From positions 1-39,966 of the IMG/VR virus record IMGVR_UViG_3300022920_000289: DNA of 39,966 nt. The stretch is one strand, 5' to 3'. Shown here piece after piece: positions 4,917 through 39,302 of the stretch; the stretch's first letter is position 1, and each line of letters begins with the position of its first letter. The position numbers and the translations under genes were made by a program. Below the pieces are notes generated by a model. That model searched no databases. It saw only the letters and a list, made by a program, of their open reading frames with translations, and was not told the origin of the DNA. The stretch is from a virus.

Positions 4917-5241
4917 CTAGTAATTCTGTTTTATCTCCGGTGTATCCTTTTGCAGGATTCATATCATCTGCGCCTGGAAGTGGATCTTTTTTCTCAACAA
5001 TTACAGGCCACATTTCTCCGTACTTAGTATTAATATCAAACAGCCTCTGTGTGAACAGCGGAGATGTATCTGGAATGATAGCTTCTGCTGGACATTCTGG
5101 TTCACATACTCCACAATCAATACATTCATCTGTGTTAATTACTAGTGTTTCTTCGCCTTCATAAAAGCAATCCACTGGACAAACCTCTACGCAATCTGTA
5201 TATTTACATTTAATGCAATCTTGTGTTACTACATATGTCAT
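4903..5241 (-). CDS. fdxA: 7Fe ferredoxin, FdxA type
   Basis: A 112-residue ferredoxin carrying one [3Fe-4S] and one [4Fe-4S] cluster. The N-terminus [17 protein letters not shown] with CVEVCPVDC and then [12 protein letters not shown] is the pattern of Azotobacter ferredoxin I and alphaproteobacterial FdxA. The C-terminal region includes the family's typical [12 protein letters not shown]. It is a soluble one-electron carrier. Between an SGNH-type gene and two Fe(II) oxygenase-like genes, it could supply electrons to those oxygenases or to the radical SAM enzyme at 25.3 kb, but this is inference. Confidence 0.93.
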
Positions 5242-6194
5242 ATTAAAAATTCATCCTTTTCTTCAATTAAACGCATAAACGCTAATGCTGTACTAGTCAT
5301 ATAATACGGAGATGGATGACTCATATCGTATGCCACTCCTTTAAGTCTCAATAATGGCCTCTTAGGGCCTTGGAATAATTGTTTATCAGCATATGACGGA
5401 GTCGTGAACAAATGTTTGATCATTCCGGTTGTGTCAATTCTATACATTTTAAGATTATAATTATTCTTTAGTTTCGCAAAATTAGATATTGTATGTCTAA
5501 ATATTTCTCTTGTTTTATCTTCTGCCAACAAACGCTTTTGATGATCATGGTTTACTTTAGAACCACCAACAGATTGGGTATTATGTAGAATGATTGACCC
5601 ATATCCGTCATAATTTTGCTTGCCGGGTCCCGGTGTACCTTTAATTAACATTTCGATACGAGGATGTAACCAACCTAGTATCAATACTGCTTTAGGAGCG
5701 CAACCAAAATGTTTTAGCCAACTATCTAATATTCTATATGATGCTTGAATTGAGCCGCCTGGTACTCCCAAGTTTAGAGTTTTAATTCCAGTGCGTTCTT
5801 CTATTACGCTAGGCCATGTCTGACATGACGGAATACCAACCCCATATGTAAAACTACAACCCAAACATACATACATATTTTTCCATTGACTCTTCGTTAT
5901 TTTTTCCATATCATCAAAGTGTGGATTGATTCTAAATTCAAAATTGTTACACTGTAGGTCTAGTTCCGTATGAACACTATGGCTGATATCCCACCAAGCA
6001 TTAGGATTAGATATCTCACCATTAAACAAATAGTTACATTCTGCAGCAGTGAGTAATTCTTTAGCTTTTTCTTTTAGAAAATAAAATTCTCCAAAACGAC
6101 CACGATGGTAAGCGTTTCTGTTGCCTGTAAAAACTGCTCCGTATGCTGCTCTATCATCAAATCTATCATAATTAGCAGAAATATAATTACTCAT
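5238..6194 (-). CDS. SGNH/GDSL-type hydrolase-like protein
   Basis: A 318-residue protein with SGNH hydrolase blocks: [11 protein letters not shown] (block I serine, about residue 114), [14 protein letters not shown] (block II glycine, about 144-157) and a C-terminal MSHPSPYYM that can supply the histidine. Such enzymes are esterases or acyltransferases acting on lipids or acetylated sugars. No signal peptide is seen. It begins just after a terminator and overlaps fdxA by 4 bases, so it leads the cassette. A second SGNH protein lies at 9.0-10.0 kb. Confidence 0.65.
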
Positions 6195-6248: not shown

Positions 6249-6605
6249 TTATTTACCCTTGTTTACGAAATCGTAAAACTGGCGTGCAGTTTCTAGTACT
6301 TGTTCTGAACCTGGGAATGCAGGCATTTCAACTTTAGTTACTACTTCATCATGCTCTTTTCGAACTGATGTTTCTAGTGCGCCTATTTTAGCATAGTAAT
6401 CTTGCCATAGTTGATTTTGTGCCATTTCTAGCATCTGTGTACGAATTTCATAACCATTCTTGTTGAATGATACTTTAGGCAATGCTGGTGCATTTGGTAC
6501 CATTTTTGATAATGCATCTGTAAATGCTTCTGGCTTCAAGCCAGTATTCTTATATAGTTCGCTGAGTTTTTCAGCCATTTCTGTCATTTGTTTTGTATCG
6601 AACAT
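6249..6605 (-). CDS. hypothetical phasin-like helical protein (118 aa)
   Basis: A 118-residue mostly helical protein with an excellent ribosome-binding site (AAAGGAGAACAAAATG). The amphipathic C-terminal half (QNQLWQDYYAKIGALETSVRK and ETARQFYDFV) resembles phasins or polyhydroxyalkanoate-associated proteins, but the similarity is weak and not diagnostic. It is a single-gene unit between the tmRNA upstream and a terminator downstream and could be cotranscribed with the tmRNA. Confidence 0.7.
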   Translation of the reverse strand: MFDTKQMTEMAEKLSELYKNTGLKPEAFTDALSKMVPNAPALPKVSFNKNGYEIRTQMLEMAQNQLWQDYYAKIGALETSVRKEHDEVVTKVEMPAFPGSEQVLETARQFYDFVNKGK

Positions 6606-6688
6606 TTTGTTCTCCTTTATGTGTGTGTGTTTGTGTGTATTGTAACTTTTCTGTTGCTAGGTAAGTCACCAACCCCCACGTGCTTAAA

Positions 6689-6730
6689 TTAAGCCGCTAA
6701 TGCCATTTCTGGCGCTTTATTTGCGTTTGC
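6689..6730 (-). other. tmRNA proteolysis-tag reading frame
   Basis: From the resume codon GCA (6728-6730) the frame reads ANANKAPEMALAA and stops with TAA at 6689-6691. The ending ALAA and the start AN are the hallmarks of ssrA degradation tags recognised by ClpXP and SspB; the charged alanine would give AANANKAPEMALAA. The tag is intact, which argues that the RNA is functional. Confidence 0.93.
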
Positions 6731-6821
6731 AATTAAAAAGTTTATTCGCGGTAACGGCGCTTATATCCCGGTAACTCCATTCATCTATCTTGTCAGTCGA
6801 TCCTAGTTCAGCCCCATTAAA

Positions 6822-6893
6822 AAACACACTGAGGAATCGAACCTCATTTCTAGAATAGTACCATACAACAGGAGCGCGGCCTGCTAGTGTGCT
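6822..6893 (-). tRNA. tRNA-like element inside the tmRNA intervening segment
   Basis: A 72-base element lies between the encoded CCA of the tmRNA acceptor half (three bases away) and the GGGG of the coding half (six bases away). It has a 7-bp acceptor stem AGCACAC/GTGTGTT and a canonical T arm TGAGG-TTCGATT-CCTCA; GCAG/CTGT could be a D stem. The D loop lacks GG and the anticodon arm is irregular (I cannot form five clean pairs with a U33), so the isoacceptor is not assigned. No CCA is encoded. It may be degenerate, or a decoy that recruits RNase P and RNase Z to cut out the intervening segment. Confidence 0.6.
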
Positions 6894-6964
6894 TATTGGT
6901 GGAGCTGCGCGGTACTGCCCCGCGGTCCTGTCCAATCGTCAAATCACTTCAACGTTACATTCTA

Positions 6965-6993
6965 TTTATAACATATTTTGAGAGTGATGTCAA
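6965..6993 (-). promoter_or_regulatory. strong sigma-70 promoter of the tmRNA
   Basis: TTGACA (6988-6993), a 17-base spacer and TATAAA (6965-6970) form a near-consensus promoter. The -10 is embedded in TTATAAATAG, so it also resembles the T4 late element. It is nearly identical to the promoter at 7394-7422 because both lie in the 117-bp duplication. Confidence 0.85.
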
Positions 6994-7020
6994 CAAAAAA
7001 AGGGAGCCTAAGCTCCCTTT
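6994..7020 (-). terminator. rho-independent terminator (copy A)
   Basis: AAAGGGAGC-TTAG-GCTCCCTTT followed by a T run on the minus strand. It is a duplicate of the porin terminator at 7424-7448 and here ends the transcript carrying the 51-aa ORF. Confidence 0.85.
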
Positions 7021-7064: not shown

Positions 7065-7089
7065 CACCAGTCGATCCTATTTCGACCCC
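7065..7089 (-). other. truncated second tmRNA 5' half
   Basis: The minus strand reads GGGGTCG-AAATAGGATCGACTGG, matching the functional 5' half at 6815 (GGGGCTG-AACTAGGATCGACTG) except for a few bases, then breaks off into the duplicated porin tail. No tag frame follows. The acceptor bases TCG instead of CTG are matched by CGACTCC upstream (7249-7255 and 7360-7366), so this is a diverged, base-pair-conserving version, not random similarity. Confidence 0.75.
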
Positions 7090-7232
7090 ATCAAAAAGAT
7101 ACGCTCAAGAGTTTTTCTAACTTCTAAAATTTGAAGTCTTAATTCTTCATCTCTTGTGTTATGATGAAGTTCTACCAACTCTTTAGTGTGTTTCAGTTCA
7201 AACTCTAAATATTCTTTTGAATATTGTTTCAT
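7077..7232 (-). CDS. small charged protein (51 aa) in the tmRNA island
   Basis: A 51-residue helical, charged protein beginning MKQYSKEYLEFELKHTKELV with a good ribosome-binding site (AAGGATACACAATG). The frame ends inside the truncated tmRNA half: its final MGSK and stop are read from GATGGGGTCGAAATAG. It is flanked by acceptor-stem modules (CGACTCCACCA 12 bases upstream, GGGGTCG downstream) and so occupies the place of a permuted-tmRNA intervening segment. A coiled-coil-like dimer is possible; no family is recognised. Confidence 0.65.
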   Translation of the reverse strand: MKQYSKEYLEFELKHTKELVELHHNTRDEELRLQILEVRKTLERIFLMGSK

Positions 7233-7244
7233 TGTGTATCCTTA

Positions 7245-7263
7245 TGGTGGAGTCGACGACCCC
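7245..7263 (-). other. joined tmRNA acceptor-stem module (hairpin)
   Basis: GGGGTCG (7257-7263) is followed after one base by CGACTCC-A-CCA (7245-7255). The two arms form a 7-bp stem with a G-U at pair three, the same acceptor stem and alanine wobble as in the real tmRNA. The module separates the tRNA-like element from the 51-aa ORF. Confidence 0.7.
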
Positions 7264-7270
7264 ATCAAAA

Positions 7271-7351
7271 CTATACTGGTAGGATTTGAACCTACATTCG
7301 TTATTGTCTCGGTTTTTACACCAACGGCTTTACCAGTTAGCCCACAGTATA
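7271..7351 (-). tRNA. tRNA-like gene, possibly tRNA-Tyr-like, irregular anticodon arm
   Basis: An 81-base cloverleaf candidate: acceptor TATACTG/CAGTATA, D stem GGCT/AGCC with loop AACTGGTAA (contains GG), and T arm GTAGG-TTCAAAT-CCTAC. Between D and T arms is a 4-5-bp stem TTGG(T)/(A)CCGA enclosing TGTAAAA, then about 13 bases that could be a class II variable arm. GTA after a T suggests tyrosine, which is class II in bacteria, but the loop counts as 6 or 8 bases, not 7, so identity and function are uncertain. It lies between CGACTCC-A-CCA (7356-7366) and GGGGTCG (7257-7263). Confidence 0.65.
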
Positions 7352-7355
7352 GTTA

Positions 7356-7366
7356 TGGTGGAGTCG
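7356..7366 (-). other. tmRNA-like acceptor 3' strand CGACTCCACCA
   Basis: CGACTCC plus discriminator A and CCA lies about 25 bases downstream of the promoter at 7394-7422. It can pair with GGGGTCG at 7257-7263 or at 7083-7089. The T-like arm that precedes CAGCTCCACCA in the intact tmRNA is absent, so this unit cannot itself be a complete tmRNA. Confidence 0.65.
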
Positions 7367-7393
7367 TTTGAATTGCTTCAACGTTACAGTTTA

Positions 7394-7422
7394 TTTATAA
7401 CATATTTTTATAGTGTTGTCAA
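7394..7422 (-). promoter_or_regulatory. strong sigma-70 promoter of the tRNA-like/51-aa unit
   Basis: TTGACA (7417-7422), 17 bases, TATAAA (7394-7399), inside repeat copy B. Transcription would start near 7387 and run through the acceptor module, tRNA-like element and 51-aa ORF to the terminator at 6994-7020. Confidence 0.85.
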
Positions 7423-7423
7423 T

Positions 7424-7448
7424 AAAAAAGGGAGCCTAAGCTCCCTTT
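7424..7448 (-). terminator. rho-independent terminator of the porin gene (copy B)
   Basis: GGGAGC-TTAG-GCTCCC with flanking A and T runs, 25 bases after the porin stop codon. Confidence 0.88.
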
Positions 7449-7472: not shown

Positions 7473-8252
7473 TTAGAATGCGAATGTTGCTGTAACTGAT
7501 GGCGTTACTTGTGCTTCGTCTGTATCGTAATCTACTGTTGATGCGAATGTGATACCGTTAAAGTCACGTGATGCTGATACACCAATGTGCTGTAGTGAGT
7601 CATTTTCATCACCGTTCAAGTAGCCAGTTAGACCTGCTACTGTTGCTTCTGCTTCAAATGCCCATGTATCTAGTGCATACGTTGCAATACCACCAACTGC
7701 GATACCTGTGATATCTGTTGAACCTGCAACTGCATATGTGTACTCTTCTGATGTGCGGTTATAATCAACTGCCGCTGTTACTTCACCGAATGAAAGAAGA
7801 TCACTTGTGTATGATGCTTGGATGTTTGCTACTTCAGATACATCAGTAGTGATGTCTGATAGACCCAATGCAAGACCTAGACCGCGTGTCGATACTTGTA
7901 GAGATTCTTTCATTGCAGCATTTGTGTCTGCTAATGTATCAAAACCTGTTGCCGCATTTGCTTCTGGAAGAATGCCGCCGTGATCACCAAATGATAAACG
8001 TACACCACTTACTGTTGTGCCCACATGCCATTCGTCAACACCAACTGAAGTGTTATCAACTGAGTTAAGTGAGATAGCACCAAATGCTTCATCGTTATCT
8101 GAAGCAACGTCAACGTTAAGAGTTGTTGTAGCTTCGAATTTATCTGTTGTTTGGTTCTCTGCAATTTCTACTTCGATTGAAGCGTCAATATCTGCTGCGA
8201 AAGATGTTGTAGCCATTGCAATAGCGGCTACCGTAGTTAATAGTAGTTTCAT
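7473..8252 (-). CDS. secreted outer-membrane beta-barrel (porin-like) protein
   Basis: A 259-residue protein with a clear signal peptide (MKLLLTTVAAIAMATTSFAA, cleavage after SFA-A near residue 19). The mature part alternates hydrophobic and polar residues in short strands and ends in aromatic TATFAF, the C-terminal phenylalanine signal for outer-membrane barrel assembly. The ribosome-binding site AAAGGAAATATAATG fixes the start. It resembles small alphaproteobacterial porins. A phage-made porin could alter nutrient uptake or mask receptors against superinfection; both are inference. It has its own promoter, hairpin leader and terminator. Confidence 0.8.
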   Translation of the reverse strand: MKLLLTTVAAIAMATTSFAADIDASIEVEIAENQTTDKFEATTTLNVDVASDNDEAFGAISLNSVDNTSVGVDEWHVGTTVSGVRLSFGDHGGILPEANAATGFDTLADTNAAMKESLQVSTRGLGLALGLSDITTDVSEVANIQASYTSDLLSFGEVTAAVDYNRTSEEYTYAVAGSTDITGIAVGGIATYALDTWAFEAEATVAGLTGYLNGDENDSLQHIGVSASRDFNGITFASTVDYDTDEAQVTPSVTATFAF

Positions 8253-9042: not shown

Positions 9043-10035
9043 CTATAAATATGAGTAATCTTGTTTTCTAATATAATCTTCTAGTAATTTTGCCACTTGT
9101 ATATTTAAGTCTCGTCCCCAATGATAGCACTCAGTAAGGCCATAATTTTCTAAAGATAATTGTTTACCTAAGGTAACTGCCCACGAATTAACGGTTCTAT
9201 TTGCTGGATCGGGATTTTTGGGATATGCTTCGCAACGTGTCTTAAAATTGAAATAGTGTGGAAAATTAGATGACAAATCGACATATTCTTCTAAGACATT
9301 ATCTATTGAAGTAATATTTAATCCAATGTCTTGTAATTCTTCATACATATTGTCTACAAATGGTACTTTTAACTTATCCTTAAATGATAGATTGTGGCGT
9401 TTAATCTGATAATCAGTATCGTTAATACCGTCAAAAATGATATATGGATATCCAGAACTTTTTAATATCATGTTTAACTCTCTGAAAACTTTAATATGAG
9501 AATATAATACATGTTCACTTGTATGTAGTTTGGTCCAATAGTCCTCCCAAAACCGCTTAGGCAAACCATTTAATGGCAATTTCTCTACTGGACGACCTTT
9601 GATATCGCTGGGTCCGGGGTCTAGAATATCACGTCTGGCTGTAAAGATGTTAGCATATTCTACCCCATGCGCTGTAAACGCTTGAAAATATTCATGTCGA
9701 GTTGGACAAGTTAAATTTATACAAAAAAACAGTTTATCAGTGGAACTTGCAGAATTAATGATTCTATGTAGATACTGAAGTGTATTATAATTAGACGATC
9801 CCATCGTTCCTAGATTAACACTGTTCTTAAAATTTATATTTTTTGATAAATGGTTGGTATAAGAATGAGCGTTATTTAAAATTCTATATAAAGGTCTATA
9901 GTCTTTTGATTTGTCACCATCTTGTCCACGCATCATTGCAGTGAAAGCAAGTAGATCCGAACCACCTTTTATGCTTCCCTGTCCAAAAGTAAAACTGTCA
10001 CCTAGACTTATGAGTGTGTAATCACTGTAGTCCAT
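9043..10035 (-). CDS. SGNH-like protein
   Basis: A 330-residue protein with SGNH block I LISLGDSFTFGQG (serine near residue 13) and block II NLGTMGSSNYNT (near 95-106). A C-terminal Asp-x-x-His pair is not certain; ECYHWGRDLN may supply the histidine. It overlaps the deformylase stop by one base. It shares layout with the SGNH protein at 5.2-6.2 kb but is clearly diverged, so the two probably act on different substrates. Confidence 0.6.
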   Translation of the reverse strand: MDYSDYTLISLGDSFTFGQGSIKGGSDLLAFTAMMRGQDGDKSKDYRPLYRILNNAHSYTNHLSKNINFKNSVNLGTMGSSNYNTLQYLHRIINSASSTDKLFFCINLTCPTRHEYFQAFTAHGVEYANIFTARRDILDPGPSDIKGRPVEKLPLNGLPKRFWEDYWTKLHTSEHVLYSHIKVFRELNMILKSSGYPYIIFDGINDTDYQIKRHNLSFKDKLKVPFVDNMYEELQDIGLNITSIDNVLEEYVDLSSNFPHYFNFKTRCEAYPKNPDPANRTVNSWAVTLGKQLSLENYGLTECYHWGRDLNIQVAKLLEDYIRKQDYSYL

Positions 10036-10547
10036 TACTTTTTCTTACGTGAAATTCTTTTAAGTTTTTCTCTACGCTTTGACTTAGCAAGACTTAATGT
10101 TGTTCCGCCGACACGTTCTTGGAATAGAACCCCATCTAAGTGATCCATTTCATGCTGAATTGCTTGCGCCCATACACCAACAAACTTAGTTGCTTTGCGT
10201 ACACCTTGCGCATTAGTATACTCTAATAGTACTGCGTTTTGACGTTTTACTTTAAGTTCAAGATGTGGGAAAGATAAACATGCTTCTGTATATGTTTCTT
10301 CTTCTGCATCTTCTGCAATTGTCATAACTGGATTAATGCATACTACAAAACCTTGTGACTTGTGTCCGACTACGAATACTCGTTCTGCTAGACCTACTTG
10401 TGGTGCGGCTAAACCGATGCCCTCATGTTCTTGCATTGTATTAATCATATCAACTGCTAGTTGTTCTGTATTCTCAGAGATAATATGCTCTGCACATTTT
10501 TGTTTTAAGATTGGATCGTTTTCGTCTACCAATTTATATTTTGCCAT
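10035..10547 (-). CDS. def: peptide deformylase
   Basis: A 170-residue metallohydrolase that removes the formyl group from nascent N-terminal methionines at the ribosome. All three motifs are present: GIGLAAPQVG (near residue 46), EACLSFP (the metal-binding cysteine, canonical EGCLS) and QHEMDHLDG (HExxH, near 132-140). The start at 10547 is chosen because GAGGAA lies 7 bases upstream; an ATG at 10562 would put that site inside the gene. Phage deformylases are known in marine phages. Here it follows a CDF transporter gene that it overlaps by 14 bases. Confidence 0.92.
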   Translation of the reverse strand: MAKYKLVDENDPILKQKCAEHIISENTEQLAVDMINTMQEHEGIGLAAPQVGLAERVFVVGHKSQGFVVCINPVMTIAEDAEEETYTEACLSFPHLELKVKRQNAVLLEYTNAQGVRKATKFVGVWAQAIQHEMDHLDGVLFQERVGGTTLSLAKSKRREKLKRISRKKK

Positions 10548-11442
10548 AGTATAATTCCTCATCTGGACATTCGTTATGTTCTACTTGTATAGTGGAGTGT
10601 GCAATTCCAAAGTTATCTATTAATAATTTCTTAGTATTCCAGATAGTGTCATTGCAACTACCACCATCAATCATCACTACATGCGCTGTTAGTGCAACTT
10701 GTCCACTAGCAAGTTCCCAGATATGCATGTGATGTATTTCTTTAATGTCATATACGCCTGACATTATGACTTTCTCAATTTCTTTTTCACTGATATTATC
10801 CGGTTTACCCATCATCATAATACGTATACAATCTGCTAATAGTTTCCAACCACTACGTAGAATCAGACTTGCTAACAACACGCTTACAATAGGGTCAGCA
10901 TACATCCAACCTGTAAAGTATATTACTATGCCGCCAATAATAGCACCGATAGATCCTAGAATATCCATTAACACATGCAGTATTGCGCCGCGCATATTAA
11001 TGTTATCATCATGATGGCTTGAATGTAGCACTTTAAATATAATTAGATTAACAATTAGTCCTGCAACTGCCACTGGTATCATTGTTGATATATCTACAGT
11101 CTCAACATTTATTAGTCTATGTATCGCTTCGTAAATAATGTAAGCAAATATGCCGAACCAAAGTAGTGCATTGAATAATGCAGCAATAACTTCTGTGCGC
11201 ATAAAGCCATATGAATATGTTTCTGTTGGTGCCCATCTACCAAGCCAGAAGCCAAGTAATGCAACTCCCAAAGCAAATGCATCTGTTAGAAGGTGCATAG
11301 CATCGCCAAAGAGCGCCAGTGAGTTGCTGTAGTGCGCGCCTACTAGTTCTACTGCTACAAATAGCAATAGAATTACAATTGAACACTTCATTGCACGTTC
11401 ATTATTAGTTCGGGGTCTTATGTGATAATCAGGATGTTTCAT
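10534..11442 (-). CDS. cation diffusion facilitator (CDF) metal efflux protein
   Basis: A 302-residue inner-membrane zinc/cadmium/cobalt-proton antiporter of the CzcD/ZitB type. Six transmembrane segments fit residues 20-205. The metal site pairs HxxxD in TM2 (GDAMHLLTDAF) with HxxxD in TM5 (HVLMDILGS). The family's cytoplasmic C-terminal domain follows with IHHMHIW and HVVMID. A short His stretch (SSHHDD) lies in the TM4-5 loop. Length matches bacterial CDFs. It is a rare gene for a phage and may regulate Zn for phage metalloenzymes or detoxify the host. Confidence 0.9.
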   Translation of the reverse strand: MKHPDYHIRPRTNNERAMKCSIVILLLFVAVELVGAHYSNSLALFGDAMHLLTDAFALGVALLGFWLGRWAPTETYSYGFMRTEVIAALFNALLWFGIFAYIIYEAIHRLINVETVDISTMIPVAVAGLIVNLIIFKVLHSSHHDDNINMRGAILHVLMDILGSIGAIIGGIVIYFTGWMYADPIVSVLLASLILRSGWKLLADCIRIMMMGKPDNISEKEIEKVIMSGVYDIKEIHHMHIWELASGQVALTAHVVMIDGGSCNDTIWNTKKLLIDNFGIAHSTIQVEHNECPDEELYYGKI

Positions 11443-15602: not shown

Positions 15603-17102
15603 TTATTTACGTTTACGTTTACATTCATACACATCAAGTGTTTTATCATTATACTCACTGTGTAGTTTCACATCATAACCCCACAATTTTTGTACATGAG
15701 TTAATACTTGTTCTGCATCACCACGATTTAATCTCTTACCATTAAAAGAGTTATGCGTAAGTGTAAGTTCACGTGTCTCTGCAACATCCGCTTCTGTTAC
15801 TTGAATGTCTGGTATCATTGCTGCTGTTACATATTGCTGTGACAATGCTTTACGTACATTCTTGTATCCTCGTTCATTATGAATAGAACTTACATGATAA
15901 TCATCATAATATTCTTCATCATGCAGAACAAACAATTTCCAATCACGAATAACTTTAGGTCCCAAGAACTGTAAGATAGCACTTTCATCACGATAGTTTG
16001 CAACAACGTCTTTAATCGTGTCACGCCAGTTAGTACCTACGATATGTGGGAACCACGCTTCGTCTTCTTTGTCTGGAGTTTCACATACACGTTGAATATC
16101 TTTCAGAATAGCAAAGCCAAGTGCATATGGGTTAAATCCGCTGTAGTTCTGTGAGTTAAAGTTCGGTTGATATAGAACTGCACTGTGTAAAGCAAAGAAC
16201 TCCATCATTGCGCCATCATCGACTTTTCCTTGATCATATAATTTATTAAAGATGTAATGGTGTGTAAATGATGCAAAGCCCTCGTTCATAACTTTTGTCT
16301 GATATTGTGGATAGAAGTATTGTGCAATACGTCTAACAATGCGACATAGTTCACGTTGCCAAGGTGCAAGAACAGGAGAATGCTTTTCTAAGAAGTATAG
16401 CAAGTTTTCTTCTGGTTCTGACGGCCAGGTATTTTGCGTAGATTTTTCTTCTTTTGCTTTCTTCGGTACTGTATTCCACAATTCATTAACTTGTGATTGT
16501 AAGTACTCACTACGTGCTTTTTGTTTTTCATACTCACGTCTTGCATTTAATTTTGGTGGACGCTTGTACTTGTTGATAGACTGATACTGAATAGCATGAC
16601 ATGCATCAAGTGTTTCTTCTACGATATCTGCACCATAACGTTCTTCGCATTCTCTAATATACTTCTTAGCAAATAACAAATAATCAACAATTGCATCAGG
16701 TGATGTCCACTGTTTAAATAGATAATTGTTCTTAAAGAAGTGATTATGACCAAATGCGGCATGCGCAATCACAAGTGCTTGTGTAGTCATAGAGTTTTCT
16801 TCCATCAAATAGTTGATACACGGATCACTATTGATAACAAGTTCGTATGCTAATCCCATACGACCTGCTTGATACTGTTGCATATTAGAAATGAAACTCT
16901 TACCGTAACTCCAATGGTCATACATCAATGGCATCCCAACTGAACTGTAAGCATCAAGCATTTGTTCTACTGTAATGATTTCAATCTGATTAGGGAAACA
17001 ATCTAGTCCCATGTCTTCGACTGCAATCTCCTCACAAGCATCCATCACTGAGTATAACTTATTAAAGTCCCAATGTGATCCTGTGTAAAGTAACTTACTC
17101 AT
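15603..17102 (-). CDS. spoVR: SpoVR/YcgB family protein
   Basis: A 499-residue cytoplasmic protein of the SpoVR family (E. coli YcgB, about 510 residues), found beside YeaH and PrkA in many bacteria and linked to stationary phase or stress; its activity is not established. Family landmarks include QMLDAYSSVGMPLMYDHWSYGK (near residues 47-68), LAYELVINSDPCINYLMEEN, HAAFGHNHFF and EGFASFTHHYIF. Near full length, so likely functional. It overlaps yeaH by 4 bases and is the last gene of the PrkA operon. Confidence 0.93.
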   Translation of the reverse strand: MSKLLYTGSHWDFNKLYSVMDACEEIAVEDMGLDCFPNQIEIITVEQMLDAYSSVGMPLMYDHWSYGKSFISNMQQYQAGRMGLAYELVINSDPCINYLMEENSMTTQALVIAHAAFGHNHFFKNNYLFKQWTSPDAIVDYLLFAKKYIRECEERYGADIVEETLDACHAIQYQSINKYKRPPKLNARREYEKQKARSEYLQSQVNELWNTVPKKAKEEKSTQNTWPSEPEENLLYFLEKHSPVLAPWQRELCRIVRRIAQYFYPQYQTKVMNEGFASFTHHYIFNKLYDQGKVDDGAMMEFFALHSAVLYQPNFNSQNYSGFNPYALGFAILKDIQRVCETPDKEDEAWFPHIVGTNWRDTIKDVVANYRDESAILQFLGPKVIRDWKLFVLHDEEYYDDYHVSSIHNERGYKNVRKALSQQYVTAAMIPDIQVTEADVAETRELTLTHNSFNGKRLNRGDAEQVLTHVQKLWGYDVKLHSEYNDKTLDVYECKRKRK

Positions 17103-18385
17103 GTTTCTTTCCTATCTTTAGCGAAAATCTTTCTGAATATCGGATATACATCTGATGGTTTCTGTACTCGTTCTGCTACCATGTTTTGATTACTACCGAC
17201 AATATTATCATACACTTCCATTAACTGATGTGCAAAGCCGCCAAGCATTCCCATTCCTCTTGGTTCTCCAACTTCAATATAAGAGAAGAACTGAGATACT
17301 GGTAGAATGTCATTCTGTAGAATTTCAAGTAATTTACCGTTGTCATCGCTCCAGTTATCACCGTCACTTGCTTGTGCAAAATATACATTCCACTCACTCG
17401 GAGAATAACGTTCACTCATAATATCTTTAGCAAGTTCAAATGCACTAGATACAACTGTACCACCACTCTCGCGTCCTGTAAAGAATTCTTCTTCATCACA
17501 TTCTTTAGCTTGTGTATGGTGACGAATGAATACTGCATCGACACGTTTGTACTTACGAGAGATAAACAAGTTAAGCATCATAAAGAAACGCTTTGCTAAA
17601 TCTTTATGGCTCTCTGTCATTGATGCTGAAACATCCATAATAAAGAATACAACAGCTTGTGAACTTGGCTTCGGTGATGTTGTGAAGTTATTATAACGTA
17701 AGTCTACTGGATCAATGAACGCTACCGCTCTAGCACGAATGCGAAGACTACTAATTTCTTCTTCAAGTTCTAAACGCTTATCTTCATCTTCTTCTGTTTC
17801 TAGTAGTGCTTCTAGTTCACGTATCTTACGCATCTTAGGCTTCTGTAGAGCGATCCTACGACCCATAGAGTTAATCATTGACTTCTCTAGATTAAGTTGT
17901 GCAGGATTGCCATCATTAGTGAAGCCACTACGATGCATTTCTACTTTCTCTACAACTTTGTTTTCTTTAGAAATCATATGAGGAAGTTCTAAGTCTTCGA
18001 ATAAGATGTTTACAAATTCATCATTAGATAATGCAAATTGAAAATCATCTTCGCCCTCGCCGTCTGGTGAACCTTGCGATCCTCCTCCGCCTTCGCCGCC
18101 CTGAGGCTTCTGTAGTAGATCACCCTCTACAAAGTCTTCATTGCCTGGAAGTACGATATCACGTGAGCCACTGTCTGACTTGTGACCAAATGATGGCTCA
18201 CTGATACCTTTACGATTGATAGTAACGTCTTGGTCATCGCCAGATCCTTTGATAGAGCGACCACCTAATTTTTCGTGAATACTTTTACGTATTTCATCTT
18301 TGGTGCGTTTGAGAAACTTTTGTCTGTTTCCCGAACTCTTACCACCTGGATTTTTGCGTCTGTCAATAATAGTATTGTTTGGCAT
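17099..18385 (-). CDS. yeaH: YeaH (DUF444) family protein
   Basis: A 428-residue protein of the YeaH/YhbH family with a C-terminal vWA-like domain. The metal site DxSxS is visible as FIMDVSASMTES (near residue 250) and ASDGDNWSDDN follows. N-terminal features are RRKNPGGKSSGNRQKF and IHEKLGGRSIKG; the middle holds an acidic, glycine-rich linker (GGEGGGGSQGSPDGEGEDD). It is thought to work with PrkA kinase in stress response. Length fits E. coli YeaH (427). Ten bases separate it from prkA. Confidence 0.93.
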   Translation of the reverse strand: MPNNTIIDRRKNPGGKSSGNRQKFLKRTKDEIRKSIHEKLGGRSIKGSGDDQDVTINRKGISEPSFGHKSDSGSRDIVLPGNEDFVEGDLLQKPQGGEGGGGSQGSPDGEGEDDFQFALSNDEFVNILFEDLELPHMISKENKVVEKVEMHRSGFTNDGNPAQLNLEKSMINSMGRRIALQKPKMRKIRELEALLETEEDEDKRLELEEEISSLRIRARAVAFIDPVDLRYNNFTTSPKPSSQAVVFFIMDVSASMTESHKDLAKRFFMMLNLFISRKYKRVDAVFIRHHTQAKECDEEEFFTGRESGGTVVSSAFELAKDIMSERYSPSEWNVYFAQASDGDNWSDDNGKLLEILQNDILPVSQFFSYIEVGEPRGMGMLGGFAHQLMEVYDNIVGSNQNMVAERVQKPSDVYPIFRKIFAKDRKET

Positions 18386-18395
18386 TATATGTCCT

Positions 18396-20330
18396 TTAGT
18401 TAGACTTCTGGACTCGCATATACCATTCTACTAGTCGTTTAACTTGACGTTCTGTATAACCTTTTTCAGTCATACGTGAAACGAAATCATCATGCTTACC
18501 TTGGTCATCTTTTGATTTCTTGCTACCGAATGAAATTACTGGAAGTAGTTCTTCTGTTCCTGCAAACATTTTGTTTTCGATAACTTCTTTCATCTTTTCA
18601 TATGCTGTCCAAGGAGGGTTACTACCTTCATACTTTGTTCTCGCACGTAGAACCCAATTCACTACTTCATTTCTAAAGTCTTTTGGATTAGCAATACCAG
18701 CTGGCTTTTCAATCTTTTCTAATTCGTCATTAAGAATAGAACGGTCAAATAAGTTACCAGTGTCTGGGTCTTTGTAATCAATGTTCTGAATCCAGTGATC
18801 TGCATAATCGATATAACGATCAAACAAGTTCTGTCCGTATTCATTATAGCTTTCTAAGTATGCTTTTTGAATTTCATTACCTACATCTTCTGCATATTTA
18901 GGAGCAAGATAATCTTTAATATAACCAATCAAACGTTCTTCGGTTTCTTCTGGGAATTGTTCACGCTTGATAGCATTCTCTAGCACATGCATTAGATGCA
19001 CTGGGTCTGCCGCAACTTCATTTGCATCATGGTTGAATGTCTGAGACAAAATCTTAAATGCGAAACGTGTTGACATACCTGCCATACCTTCGTCTACTCC
19101 TGCTACGTCACGATACTCTTGCATCGTCTTTGCTTTAGGATCAACATCATGTAGGTTCTCACCGTTGTATACACGCATCTTTGCAGGAAGATTACTATTT
19201 GTATGTGTCTTTAGACGTGACAAAATAGAGAACTGTGCAAGCATATCTAGTGTATGCGGTGCGCAACGACTGTCATCAAGGCCAGATGATTTAAGCATCT
19301 TGTCATAGATAGATGTTTCTTCTGTAACACGTAGACAGTAAGGGACTTTAACGATGTATACACGATCCAAGAACGCTTCGTTGTTCTTGTTGTTTCTGAA
19401 TGCTTCCCATTCGCTTTCGTTAGAGTGTGCAACTACTACGCCGTTAAACGGGATTGCTGAGATACCCTCAGTACCCATATAGTTACCTTCTTGTGTCGCT
19501 GTTAACAGTGGGTGTAGAACTTTGATTGGTGCTTTAAACATCTCAACAAATTCCATCATGCCCTGGTTACCACGACATAGACCGCCTGAGAACGCATATG
19601 AATCTGGATCATTCTGTGAGAAATACTCTAGCTTACGAATATCTGTTTTACCAACCAGTGATGAAATATCTTGATTGTTATCATCGCCCGGTTCTGTTTT
19701 CATAATACCGATTTGTTTCAGTTTCGATGGATACATCTTTACTACTGAGAACTTAGAGATATCACCGTCATATTCTTCTAGGCGTTTGACTGCCCAAGGC
19801 GAAAGAAGACCAGATAAGTAACGCTTTGGAATACCGTATTCGTTTTCCATATCATCACTAAAATCTTTTGGATCGAAAAGTCCTAGAGGCGTTTCATATA
19901 CTGGAGAGATTTCATCGCCAGCTTTTAGAACATACATAGGATGCTGTTCCATTAATTCTTTTAGTCGTTCTGCAAGAGAAGACTTACCACCACCAACTGG
20001 ACCAAGAAGATAAAGAACTTGCTTACGTTCTTCTAGTCCTTGTGCCGAATGACGAAAGTATGCTACTAGACGTTCTACTGCTTCTTCCATCCCAAAGAAA
20101 TCTTTAAACGCTGGGTAGACTTTGATTGTTCTGTTTAAGAAGATACGACTTAGACGTTGGTCTGTGCTTGTATCTACGGTTTCTGGCTCACCGATTGCAT
20201 TAAGCATTCTTTCTGGAGCAGTTGCGTATGCTAGTTTATCTTTTTTGCACAACTTCAAATAGTCTTCTAACGACATTTCATCTTGTTGCTTACTAGCATA
20301 TACTTTACTGAATTTTTTTAATACGCCCAT
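18396..20330 (-). CDS. prkA: PrkA/YeaG serine protein kinase
   Basis: A 644-residue protein, the same length as E. coli YeaG. The N-terminal AAA-type domain has Walker A LLGPVGGGKSSLAE (near residue 95); the C-terminal part corresponds to the PrkA kinase domain. PrkA/YeaG is a nutrient-stress and stationary-phase regulator reported to phosphorylate or proteolyse partners. The start at 20330 has AGAGGAC upstream; an in-frame ATG at 20360 would include that site. It leads the PrkA-YeaH-SpoVR operon. Completeness suggests active reprogramming of host starvation signalling. Confidence 0.93.
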   Translation of the reverse strand: MGVLKKFSKVYASKQQDEMSLEDYLKLCKKDKLAYATAPERMLNAIGEPETVDTSTDQRLSRIFLNRTIKVYPAFKDFFGMEEAVERLVAYFRHSAQGLEERKQVLYLLGPVGGGKSSLAERLKELMEQHPMYVLKAGDEISPVYETPLGLFDPKDFSDDMENEYGIPKRYLSGLLSPWAVKRLEEYDGDISKFSVVKMYPSKLKQIGIMKTEPGDDNNQDISSLVGKTDIRKLEYFSQNDPDSYAFSGGLCRGNQGMMEFVEMFKAPIKVLHPLLTATQEGNYMGTEGISAIPFNGVVVAHSNESEWEAFRNNKNNEAFLDRVYIVKVPYCLRVTEETSIYDKMLKSSGLDDSRCAPHTLDMLAQFSILSRLKTHTNSNLPAKMRVYNGENLHDVDPKAKTMQEYRDVAGVDEGMAGMSTRFAFKILSQTFNHDANEVAADPVHLMHVLENAIKREQFPEETEERLIGYIKDYLAPKYAEDVGNEIQKAYLESYNEYGQNLFDRYIDYADHWIQNIDYKDPDTGNLFDRSILNDELEKIEKPAGIANPKDFRNEVVNWVLRARTKYEGSNPPWTAYEKMKEVIENKMFAGTEELLPVISFGSKKSKDDQGKHDDFVSRMTEKGYTERQVKRLVEWYMRVQKSN

Positions 20331-20365
20331 ATTAATTTTGTCCTCTTTTATTATATTCATATATA

Positions 20366-22008: not shown

Positions 22009-22692
22009 TTATTTTGAAGATTTCTGATCTGCTATCCACTTTTTAGCTCTACGGTCGTTTGGTGCAGACATTAAGAATTTGTCAATAGCTCTATCGACTT
22101 CTAAGAAGTTTGCTTTACGATCTGGATCTTCAAGACCACCACTGTTATCTACAATGTGAAAGTTTCCCGCACCAAAAAGCTGTTGAAACTTCATAAGGTT
22201 TTGCTGAACTGTTTGCCACATCTTAGTTACTTGCTCTTTAGGAAGACTTCTAGCTCTTGCTGAATTACGATCCTGTGCTACGTCTTCACTTGTATTAACA
22301 AATAACATCATAGTTTCATAACCTAATGATTTTAATTGTTCACTCGCTTTTTGTACCTTCGCTACGTCTTTTCCGGTACCATCGATAATAAGTCCTAGAC
22401 GGCCTTCAATATGAGATGCTTCTTTATTTTTTGTAATCTGCTTCGCACGATTGCGAATTTCTTGACCTTCATCTGAATAGATATTGTCAGGTGTTAATTC
22501 TTTGCCTGCTTTCCCCATCATATATTCGTAGATATCATCTGAATTCACAGTACGTAGTCCGGTGCCACTTAGCATCTTATTAGCTACGAATGATTTACCA
22601 CTACCTGGACCGCCAGCTAAAAATACTGCTTTAAAGATATGAGGATCATTGACCCCCTCTTCTACTGGTTTGATGATTTCATTAACGTACAT
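22009..22692 (-). CDS. P-loop kinase (zeta-toxin/polynucleotide-kinase-like)
   Basis: A 227-residue P-loop phosphotransferase. Walker A FLAGGPGSGKSFVANK is at residues 25-40; TVNSDDIYEYMM gives the acidic residues that follow in zeta-toxin and T4 polynucleotide-kinase-like proteins, and an arginine-rich lid (RNSARARSLPKE) is near residue 147. The starting MYVNEIIKPVEEG resembles other virion-region genes. A role in RNA repair with the ligase-like protein at 34.5 kb is possible. Confidence 0.75.
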   Translation of the reverse strand: MYVNEIIKPVEEGVNDPHIFKAVFLAGGPGSGKSFVANKMLSGTGLRTVNSDDIYEYMMGKAGKELTPDNIYSDEGQEIRNRAKQITKNKEASHIEGRLGLIIDGTGKDVAKVQKASEQLKSLGYETMMLFVNTSEDVAQDRNSARARSLPKEQVTKMWQTVQQNLMKFQQLFGAGNFHIVDNSGGLEDPDRKANFLEVDRAIDKFLMSAPNDRRAKKWIADQKSSK

Positions 22693-38615: not shown

Positions 38616-39302
38616 TTAATATGTTGTGATAATATGATCTGCGATCCCATGCTTCAGTGTTTCCTCTGGATTCAACCAGCAATCACTTTCTGGAAGTAGC
38701 CATTTACGAATGTATGCTTCATTCTTACCAGTACATTTCTTGTAGTGATCCATCATACGTTCTGTAGATAGTTCAAATTCTTTTACAATTGACATCAATT
38801 CGTGTTCTTTACCACGTGAACCCCAAGAGTATTGATGTGACATTACGCTAGTGTTCTGTGTAATATAACGATGTCCTTTTTCACCTGCCATCATTAGCAA
38901 TACGCCGCAACTTGCAATCATGCCCATCCCATATGTATATACAGGAATGTCACTCTGCTTGATTACGTCAATCAGATGGAATGCACTGTTCACTGCTCCG
39001 CCTGGAGAGTTGATGTACAGATGAATTACTTCTGGTCTTGTTTCTGCTGGCATCATATTGTATTCCATAATCATTTTGACTAATGGCATACAGTTTTCTT
39101 GGTTAAATTCTTTGTCCATAAAAAGAACGCCTGCATCATATAGCATTTCACCGGGCTTCTTTGGTGGTTGAGGCGGTTGCGGCATAGGCATTGGTGGGGG
39201 TGCAGGTGCCACTTTTGGTGTTGGAATTACCTTTGTTGTCTCTACTGGCTTTTTAGCCGGAGCTTTTTTTGTTACTTTTTTCTTTTTAGGTTCTTTAGCC
39301 AT
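38616..39302 (-). CDS. ClpP-like serine protease with Lys/Ala/Pro-rich N-terminus
   Basis: A 228-residue protein. Residues 1-50 are an unusual low-complexity tail (AKEPKKKKVTKKAPAKKP then PAPPPMPMPQPPQPPKKP); the rest is a ClpP fold with the catalytic serine in MIASCGVLLMMAG (near 131), histidine in VMSHQYSWG (near 155) and aspartate in LPESDCWLNPEE (near 207). INSPGGAVNSAF is the oxyanion segment. It lies between primase and helicase genes. It could be a host-protein or tag-degrading protease, or a head-maturation protease; the tail could anchor it to DNA or to a partner. Confidence 0.88.
   Translation of the reverse strand: MAKEPKKKKVTKKAPAKKPVETTKVIPTPKVAPAPPPMPMPQPPQPPKKPGEMLYDAGVLFMDKEFNQENCMPLVKMIMEYNMMPAETRPEVIHLYINSPGGAVNSAFHLIDVIKQSDIPVYTYGMGMIASCGVLLMMAGEKGHRYITQNTSVMSHQYSWGSRGKEHELMSIVKEFELSTERMMDHYKKCTGKNEAYIRKWLLPESDCWLNPEETLKHGIADHIITTY

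Follow-up and report, generated by a model that had tools for sequence, protein, structure and literature searches.

Exchangeable cassettes in the IVS of permuted phage tmRNA genes: a probable cargo slot for small protein genes and structured RNAs

The window analyzed here, the whole 39,966-nucleotide stretch of IMG/VR virus record IMGVR_UViG_3300022920_000289, carries on its minus strand a complete permuted alpha-type tmRNA gene with the tag ANANKAPEMALAA, identified by both ARAGORN and Rfam (the features of the tmRNA locus given below also lie on the minus strand). The ARAGORN permuted tmRNA spans 6598-6989; RF01849 (alpha_tmRNA) matched 6639-6997 with 109.3 bits (E value 4e-29, cut-off 50), and RF04321 (tmRNA_permuted) matched the same gene with 100.3 bits, above its cut-off. 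The 3' half precedes the 5' half. The acceptor half (6897-6958 in the RF04321 and RF01849 alignments) consists of the T-arm, the acceptor 3' strand CAGCTCC and a CCA encoded at 6899-6897, while the 5' half and mRNA-like piece (6640-6815) starts with GGGGCTG and contains the tag codons at 6730-6689, so that GGGGCTG/CAGCTCC form an acceptor stem with the G3-U70 pair. The original prediction, which was made from the letters alone, had named this tag, the acceptor half with CCA, the G3-U70 pair, the GGGGCTG 5' half and the tag frame, and all of these were confirmed in the sequence, by the ARAGORN call and by significant covariance model matches. It had left the strand unstated and had overlooked three features treated below, namely the 81-nt structured IVS within the gene, a second and weak alpha_tmRNA match, and a tandem unit further upstream. 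Close relatives, L477-L479, are 95-96% identical in the acceptor half and 94-95% identical in the body and 5' half, with tags ANNNYAPEMALAA / ANANYAPEMALAA (close relatives have ANANY/ANNNYAPEMALAA). The tags of L477-L479 end in APEMALAA, which is the commonest tag ending in the viral set among the matches listed and is absent from the host loci examined; the tag frame, with its hydrophobic-A-A end, is thus conserved in relatives. Promoter-like elements (6963-6993) precede the gene, namely TTGACA at 6993-6988 and a late-promoter-like TATAAATA at 6970-6963, the latter type of element being conserved in L477 and L478. Since a generic sigma-70 scan reported no promoter for this leader, these elements are consensus matches only. 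From its sequence the gene looks like a working tmRNA gene. A search of the window and six related phage records gave no SmpB, and the phage tmRNA would therefore presumably rely on SmpB from the host. As the original prediction proposed, it may replace or compete with the tmRNA of the host. The window region had no match in an INPHARED DNA search, the neighboring gene at 5238-6194 had no relatives in IMG/VR, and no group I intron core was detected between 6500 and 7600 at E ≤ 5.

Phage tmRNAs had been described in the original prediction as uncommon, a view that does not hold: one IMG/VR scan for the conserved tmRNA 5' half gave at least 120 matches on more than 100 viral contigs, and the accessible part of a published report (PMC9004378) gives two-piece tmRNAs in marine phages as 53 of 133 unique phage tmRNA structures, with a description of that of phage Melnitz. 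The label T4-like is not supported, because Gp23 and Portal_T4 both lacked a match in the window and in a 155-kb record whose tmRNA is a close relative (records that may be fragments, searched with a weak portal profile that matched nowhere), although TATAAATA precedes both the intact tmRNA and the unit upstream of it. The ClpP-like protease that had been noted at 38.6 kb does have a CLP_protease fold (38616-39302, 113.8 bits), but its best PHROG is a head maturation protease, so the proposed link to tag-directed degradation is unsupported. We discarded phrog_2 as a phage marker because it also matches bacterial controls. Elsewhere in the window, genes for a PrkA kinase (yeaG), a DUF444 protein (yeaH) and SpoVR are consecutive at 15603-20360 (minus strand), and the PrkA most closely resembles proteins of uncultured ~635-kb phages (57-61%) and of Enterobacter phage LAU1 (66%). 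A peptide deformylase gene (10035-10562, minus strand, 133.8 bits) adjoins one for a cation efflux protein (10534-11442), and 22009-22692 (minus strand) encodes an AAA_33/Zeta-toxin-like P-loop protein.

We use IVS for the segment between the acceptor CCA and the 5' GGGG of a permuted tmRNA gene. In the intact gene of the window the IVS is 81 nt long (6816-6896) and is a tRNA-like cassette, with the T-arm TGAGG-TTCGATT-CCTCA, a TATGGTACTA hairpin and a 9-bp terminal helix. By ARAGORN it is not a tRNA, and RF00005 likewise made no tRNA call at 6816-6896. Homologous cassettes were found in L499, L506, L507, L017 and L089, and of the 23 consensus pairs of this cassette type, 10 show two-sided changes. 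In L477 and L478, both close relatives, a 30-nt hairpin takes the place of the 81-nt cassette.

Just upstream of the intact tmRNA lies a tandem unit (7491-6996) without a tmRNA body, which shares with the leader of the intact gene a 68-nt repeat at 100% and a 62-nt repeat at 85% identity, and in which a second, weak alpha_tmRNA match was found (7070-7261, 16.9 bits). One terminator-like hairpin lies upstream of this unit (7427-7448), and another (6999-7020) separates it from the intact tmRNA. Its leader (7356-7422) contains a TTGACA-like element (7422-7417), TATAAATA (7399-7392), GTAACGTTGAAG and the acceptor 3' strand CGACTCC-ACCA (7366-7356), with the T-arm absent. Acceptor-stem brackets enclose both of its cassettes, one being a putative tRNA and the other a 51-aa gene. 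The putative tRNA in the first slot (7270-7352) has a class II-like variable arm and a 6-nt anticodon loop; it scored 44.4 bits with RF00005 (cut-off 29), and the ARAGORN call, tRNA-?(Leu|Phe), was ambiguous. The slots are joined at GGGGTCG-T-CGACTCCACCA by the minihelix GGGGTCG-T-CGACTCC-ACCA (7245-7263), an acceptor stem with G3-U70 and CCA that has no tmRNA body between its strands and alone folds at -7.8 kcal/mol. A remnant 5' half, GGGGTCGAAATAGGATCGACTGG (7067-7089), recognizable as a repeat and common to L480-L487, contains the TAG that terminates the 51-aa gene. The whole array is predicted to fold as two bracketed hairpins in tandem. A search of IMG/VR for the bracket-array pattern gave six matches, all of them chance matches in coding DNA, and no second such array. 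The 3' end of a gene for a putative secreted or outer-membrane protein (7473-8252, minus strand) belongs to the duplicated repeat, and relatives of this protein adjoin tmRNAs in dozens of viral loci.

The 51-aa gene (MKQYSKEYLEFELKHTKELVELHHNTRDEELRLQILEVRKTLERIFLMGSK, 7077-7232) occupies the second bracketed IVS slot. Base pairing joins its SD-like AAGGA to the 3' end of the slot (AAGGATAC/GTATCTTT), and its translation may therefore depend on opening of the terminal helix. Homologues were found in eight other phage contigs, seven at 100% and one at 88% identity, and all eight sit inside the IVS of intact permuted tmRNAs whose tags differ from that of the window; our homologue search thus found this gene solely in IVS slots. 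The block shared with the eight contigs ends at the acceptor stem and just beyond the D-loop region. The reading frame is intact in the window, where it differs from that of L481 by one synonymous change and from that of L487 by seven synonymous and six nonsynonymous codons. The TAG stop has been lost in L480-L486 through a 1-nt insertion. T4 Gp23 is present in at least three of the phages sharing the gene (L481, L486 and L487).

In order to compare host and viral IVSs, we collected 107 unique alphaproteobacterial IVSs, leaving out one misparse, and a viral sample made up of the matches listed in three IMG/VR scans, two of which targeted particular IVS ends; host DNA may be present among these IMG/VR contigs. 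The host IVSs had a median length of 29 nt and none reached 100 nt, whereas the 104 unique IVSs among the matches listed in the untargeted viral scan had a median of 78 nt, with 64 of at least 60 nt and 30 of at least 100 nt. An open reading frame covered at least 75% of the length in 67% of these 30 long IVSs, compared with 8.7% (maximum 20%) in shuffled controls that preserved the IVS ends. No such excess was present in IVSs of 60-99 nt (18% versus 24% in shuffles), which look like structured RNAs. The small ORFs in long viral IVSs are evidently under purifying selection, with pN/pS between 0.05 and 0.39 in the 13 ORF families that allowed its calculation (simple counts, several from a single pair). 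The 100 IVS ORFs grouped here fall into 36 families; ATG is the start codon of 82 of these ORFs and an SD-like sequence precedes 72, and the pairing of this sequence with the IVS 3' end seen in the 51-aa gene recurs in other cargo families. The stop codon lies within the tmRNA 5' half in 17 of the 36 families, which is no clear preference, and selection for stops inside the tmRNA was dropped for that reason. A helix of at least 8 bp between the first and last 16 nt was found in 93% of viral IVSs and in 25% after ends were swapped between IVSs, indicating that the ends covary. Mid-size IVSs were highly diverse, forming 72 clusters among 135, many of them singletons. Cargo proteins had essentially no match in Pfam, PHROGs or phage records, and none had a known function; Rfam placed no known family inside any IVS at 13 loci with structured IVSs. 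Structured IVS families of 60-80 nt recur in L091, L120, L142, L010, L093 and relatives, with motifs such as CTGATAAA, GGACAAG...ACAAGTC or GGATCGCAACCTTGAG, and some are common to unrelated tmRNA bodies. One viral contig (L286) has two permuted tmRNA genes on the minus strand, at ~5.4 kb and ~8.6 kb, 3.2 kb apart and with different IVSs.

Exchange was examined in the 230 tmRNAs, among the matches listed, whose IVS measured 60 nt or more. In 42 pairs the IVSs were at least 90% identical in bodies less than 65% identical (random-pair bodies, 58%), and in 50 pairs the bodies were at least 85% identical with IVSs below 60%. Since like IVSs occur in unlike bodies and unlike IVSs in like bodies, cassette and body recombine, and the IVS behaves in these comparisons as an exchangeable cassette with a history distinct from that of the tmRNA body. 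Cassettes would probably move by homologous recombination within the conserved flanking sequences CTCCACCA and GATGGGGNNGAANTAGGATCGAC.

Long IVSs also occur in isolated phages. In all four Melnitz records the IVS measures 142 nt and bears both an SD-like sequence and a 54-codon ORF that runs into the tmRNA; the records annotate only SsrA at this locus, leaving the ORF unannotated. The IVSs of roseophages MD18, MAL1, V10, RcXuper and DSS3P8 are structured and 98-111 nt long, and that of HTVC008M is 49 nt. In Sinorhizobium phage Phosso (L463) the IVS is 410 nt long and folds into a pair of hairpins in tandem, separated by a short acceptor-like linker, a possible parallel to the array in the window. 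The roseophage tmRNAs of L462, L464, L465 and L466 lie near GOLLD-like RNA, with matches of 118, 46 and 48 bits that are cut at the locus end and fall below the 150-bit cut-off, and a weak YrlA-like match lies near the tmRNA of RcXuper.

These data make it very probable that the IVS of permuted phage tmRNAs is a cargo slot for exchangeable cassettes, either small protein genes or tRNA-like and other structured RNAs, and that a terminal helix adjoining the acceptor stem closes it. The slot, its cargo, selection on cargo coding, the terminal helix and exchange are apparent from comparison of the loci, and a route of expression may be proposed. As in tRNA and tmRNA processing, RNase P would cut the primary transcript before GGGG, the acceptor half would be trimmed to CCA to give the two-piece tmRNA, and the IVS would be freed as a small mRNA or RNA made together with the tmRNA. 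Where a stop codon lies inside the 5' half, it is tempting to speculate that RNase P cleavage strips the stop and leaves a nonstop message that becomes a target of the tmRNA itself. There is a precedent in E. coli arfA, whose mRNA is cut near its 3' end so that the stop is removed and trans-translation represses the product (PMC3989581, PMC10107115). The arfA cut is made by RNase III at a hairpin, whereas the cut proposed by analogy for the IVS genes is at the tmRNA's own RNase P site. With no preference in stop position and the stop lost in L480-L486, general selection for such a nonstop switch seems unlikely. The fuller idea of a mobile expression slot, in which tmRNA maturation would free the cargo mRNA and the same cut would remove many stops and place the co-made protein under tmRNA control, is offered by analogy and seems unlikely.

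The inserts might instead be neutral filler or decaying gene fragments, added by recombination and tolerated since they are excised. The diversity of IVS content and the failure of any cargo to fall into a known family fit this reading, but purifying selection in 13 ORF families, SD-like sequences ahead of most ORFs, covariation of the terminal helix and two-sided pair changes in the tRNA-like cassette argue against it, and we regard it as improbable. Still harder to credit is that the ORFs are ordinary genes overlapping the tmRNA by chance, at a slot with no special role. Some ORFs do extend from the IVS into the tmRNA; however, cassette boundaries coincide with the acceptor stem, many unrelated ORF families occupy this one site, host tmRNAs are permuted yet lack such ORFs, and our homologue search placed the 51-aa gene in IVS slots alone.

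The upstream unit raises separate questions. It could be a functionless pseudogene of a duplicated tmRNA, in which the 51-aa gene is dead weight; the T-arm and the tag are missing, as is most of the body, the tRNA has an odd 6-nt anticodon loop, and the exact 68-nt repeat suggests recent duplication. Both acceptor brackets nevertheless keep perfect 7-bp pairing and CCA, the 51-aa frame is intact and one synonymous change from that of L481, and promoter- and terminator-like elements bound the unit, so that we consider a pseudogene a real possibility, although not the one we favor. The body-less unit and the tandem arrangement are known from one metagenome contig with an exact 68-nt repeat, and a join error during assembly is therefore possible; no second array was found. 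An artefact nonetheless appears rather unlikely, given that the cassettes differ from one another, that the join is a clean acceptor minihelix, and that the IVS of the isolate Phosso likewise folds as two tandem hairpins.

The tmRNA of the window is itself of a known kind, and it is the IVS as a cargo slot that is provisionally new. Permuted two-piece tmRNA in alphaproteobacteria is credited in the accessible part of PMC9004378 to Keiler, Shapiro and Williams (2000), and the alphaproteobacterial RNAs (RF01849/RF04321) share with the window the gene order, the G3-U70 acceptor stem, CCA and a tag ending in ALAA; they differ from the phages in a short IVS with no gene, where the phage IVS has cargo. 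The two-piece tmRNAs of Melnitz and other marine phages are, like that of the window, permuted, alpha-type and in a phage, and the Melnitz IVS has an ORF. The Melnitz tag and phage differ from those of the window, and the accessible part of PMC9004378 describes the tmRNA and a riboswitch, with no IVS gene. A second paper (PMC11915505) includes, in its accessible part, a tRNA-Ala within a permuted tmRNA IVS of one nominally archaeal MAG, termed unique, and one repetitive element. This resembles the window in having a tRNA inside an IVS, whereas that part makes no mention of protein genes or of exchange between phages. The group I introns with homing endonuclease genes that it includes are also cargo inside a tmRNA gene and absent from the mature RNA; those introns sit in the T-loop and splice, whereas the phage cassettes lie in the IVS, need no splicing and had no Rfam intron match. 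The open-access papers searched gave no account of protein genes lying within tmRNA IVSs, and on that basis the novelty is provisional.

The IVS of permuted tmRNAs has so far been treated as spacer or waste. With the isolate Melnitz, the idea of a cargo slot can be tested now. If it is correct, RNase P processing would be linked to trans-translation in a way that experiments could test, cassette exchange would operate on very small units bordered by conserved tRNA-like sequence, and dozens of small phage protein families may lie hidden where annotation labels RNA, as in the Melnitz records.
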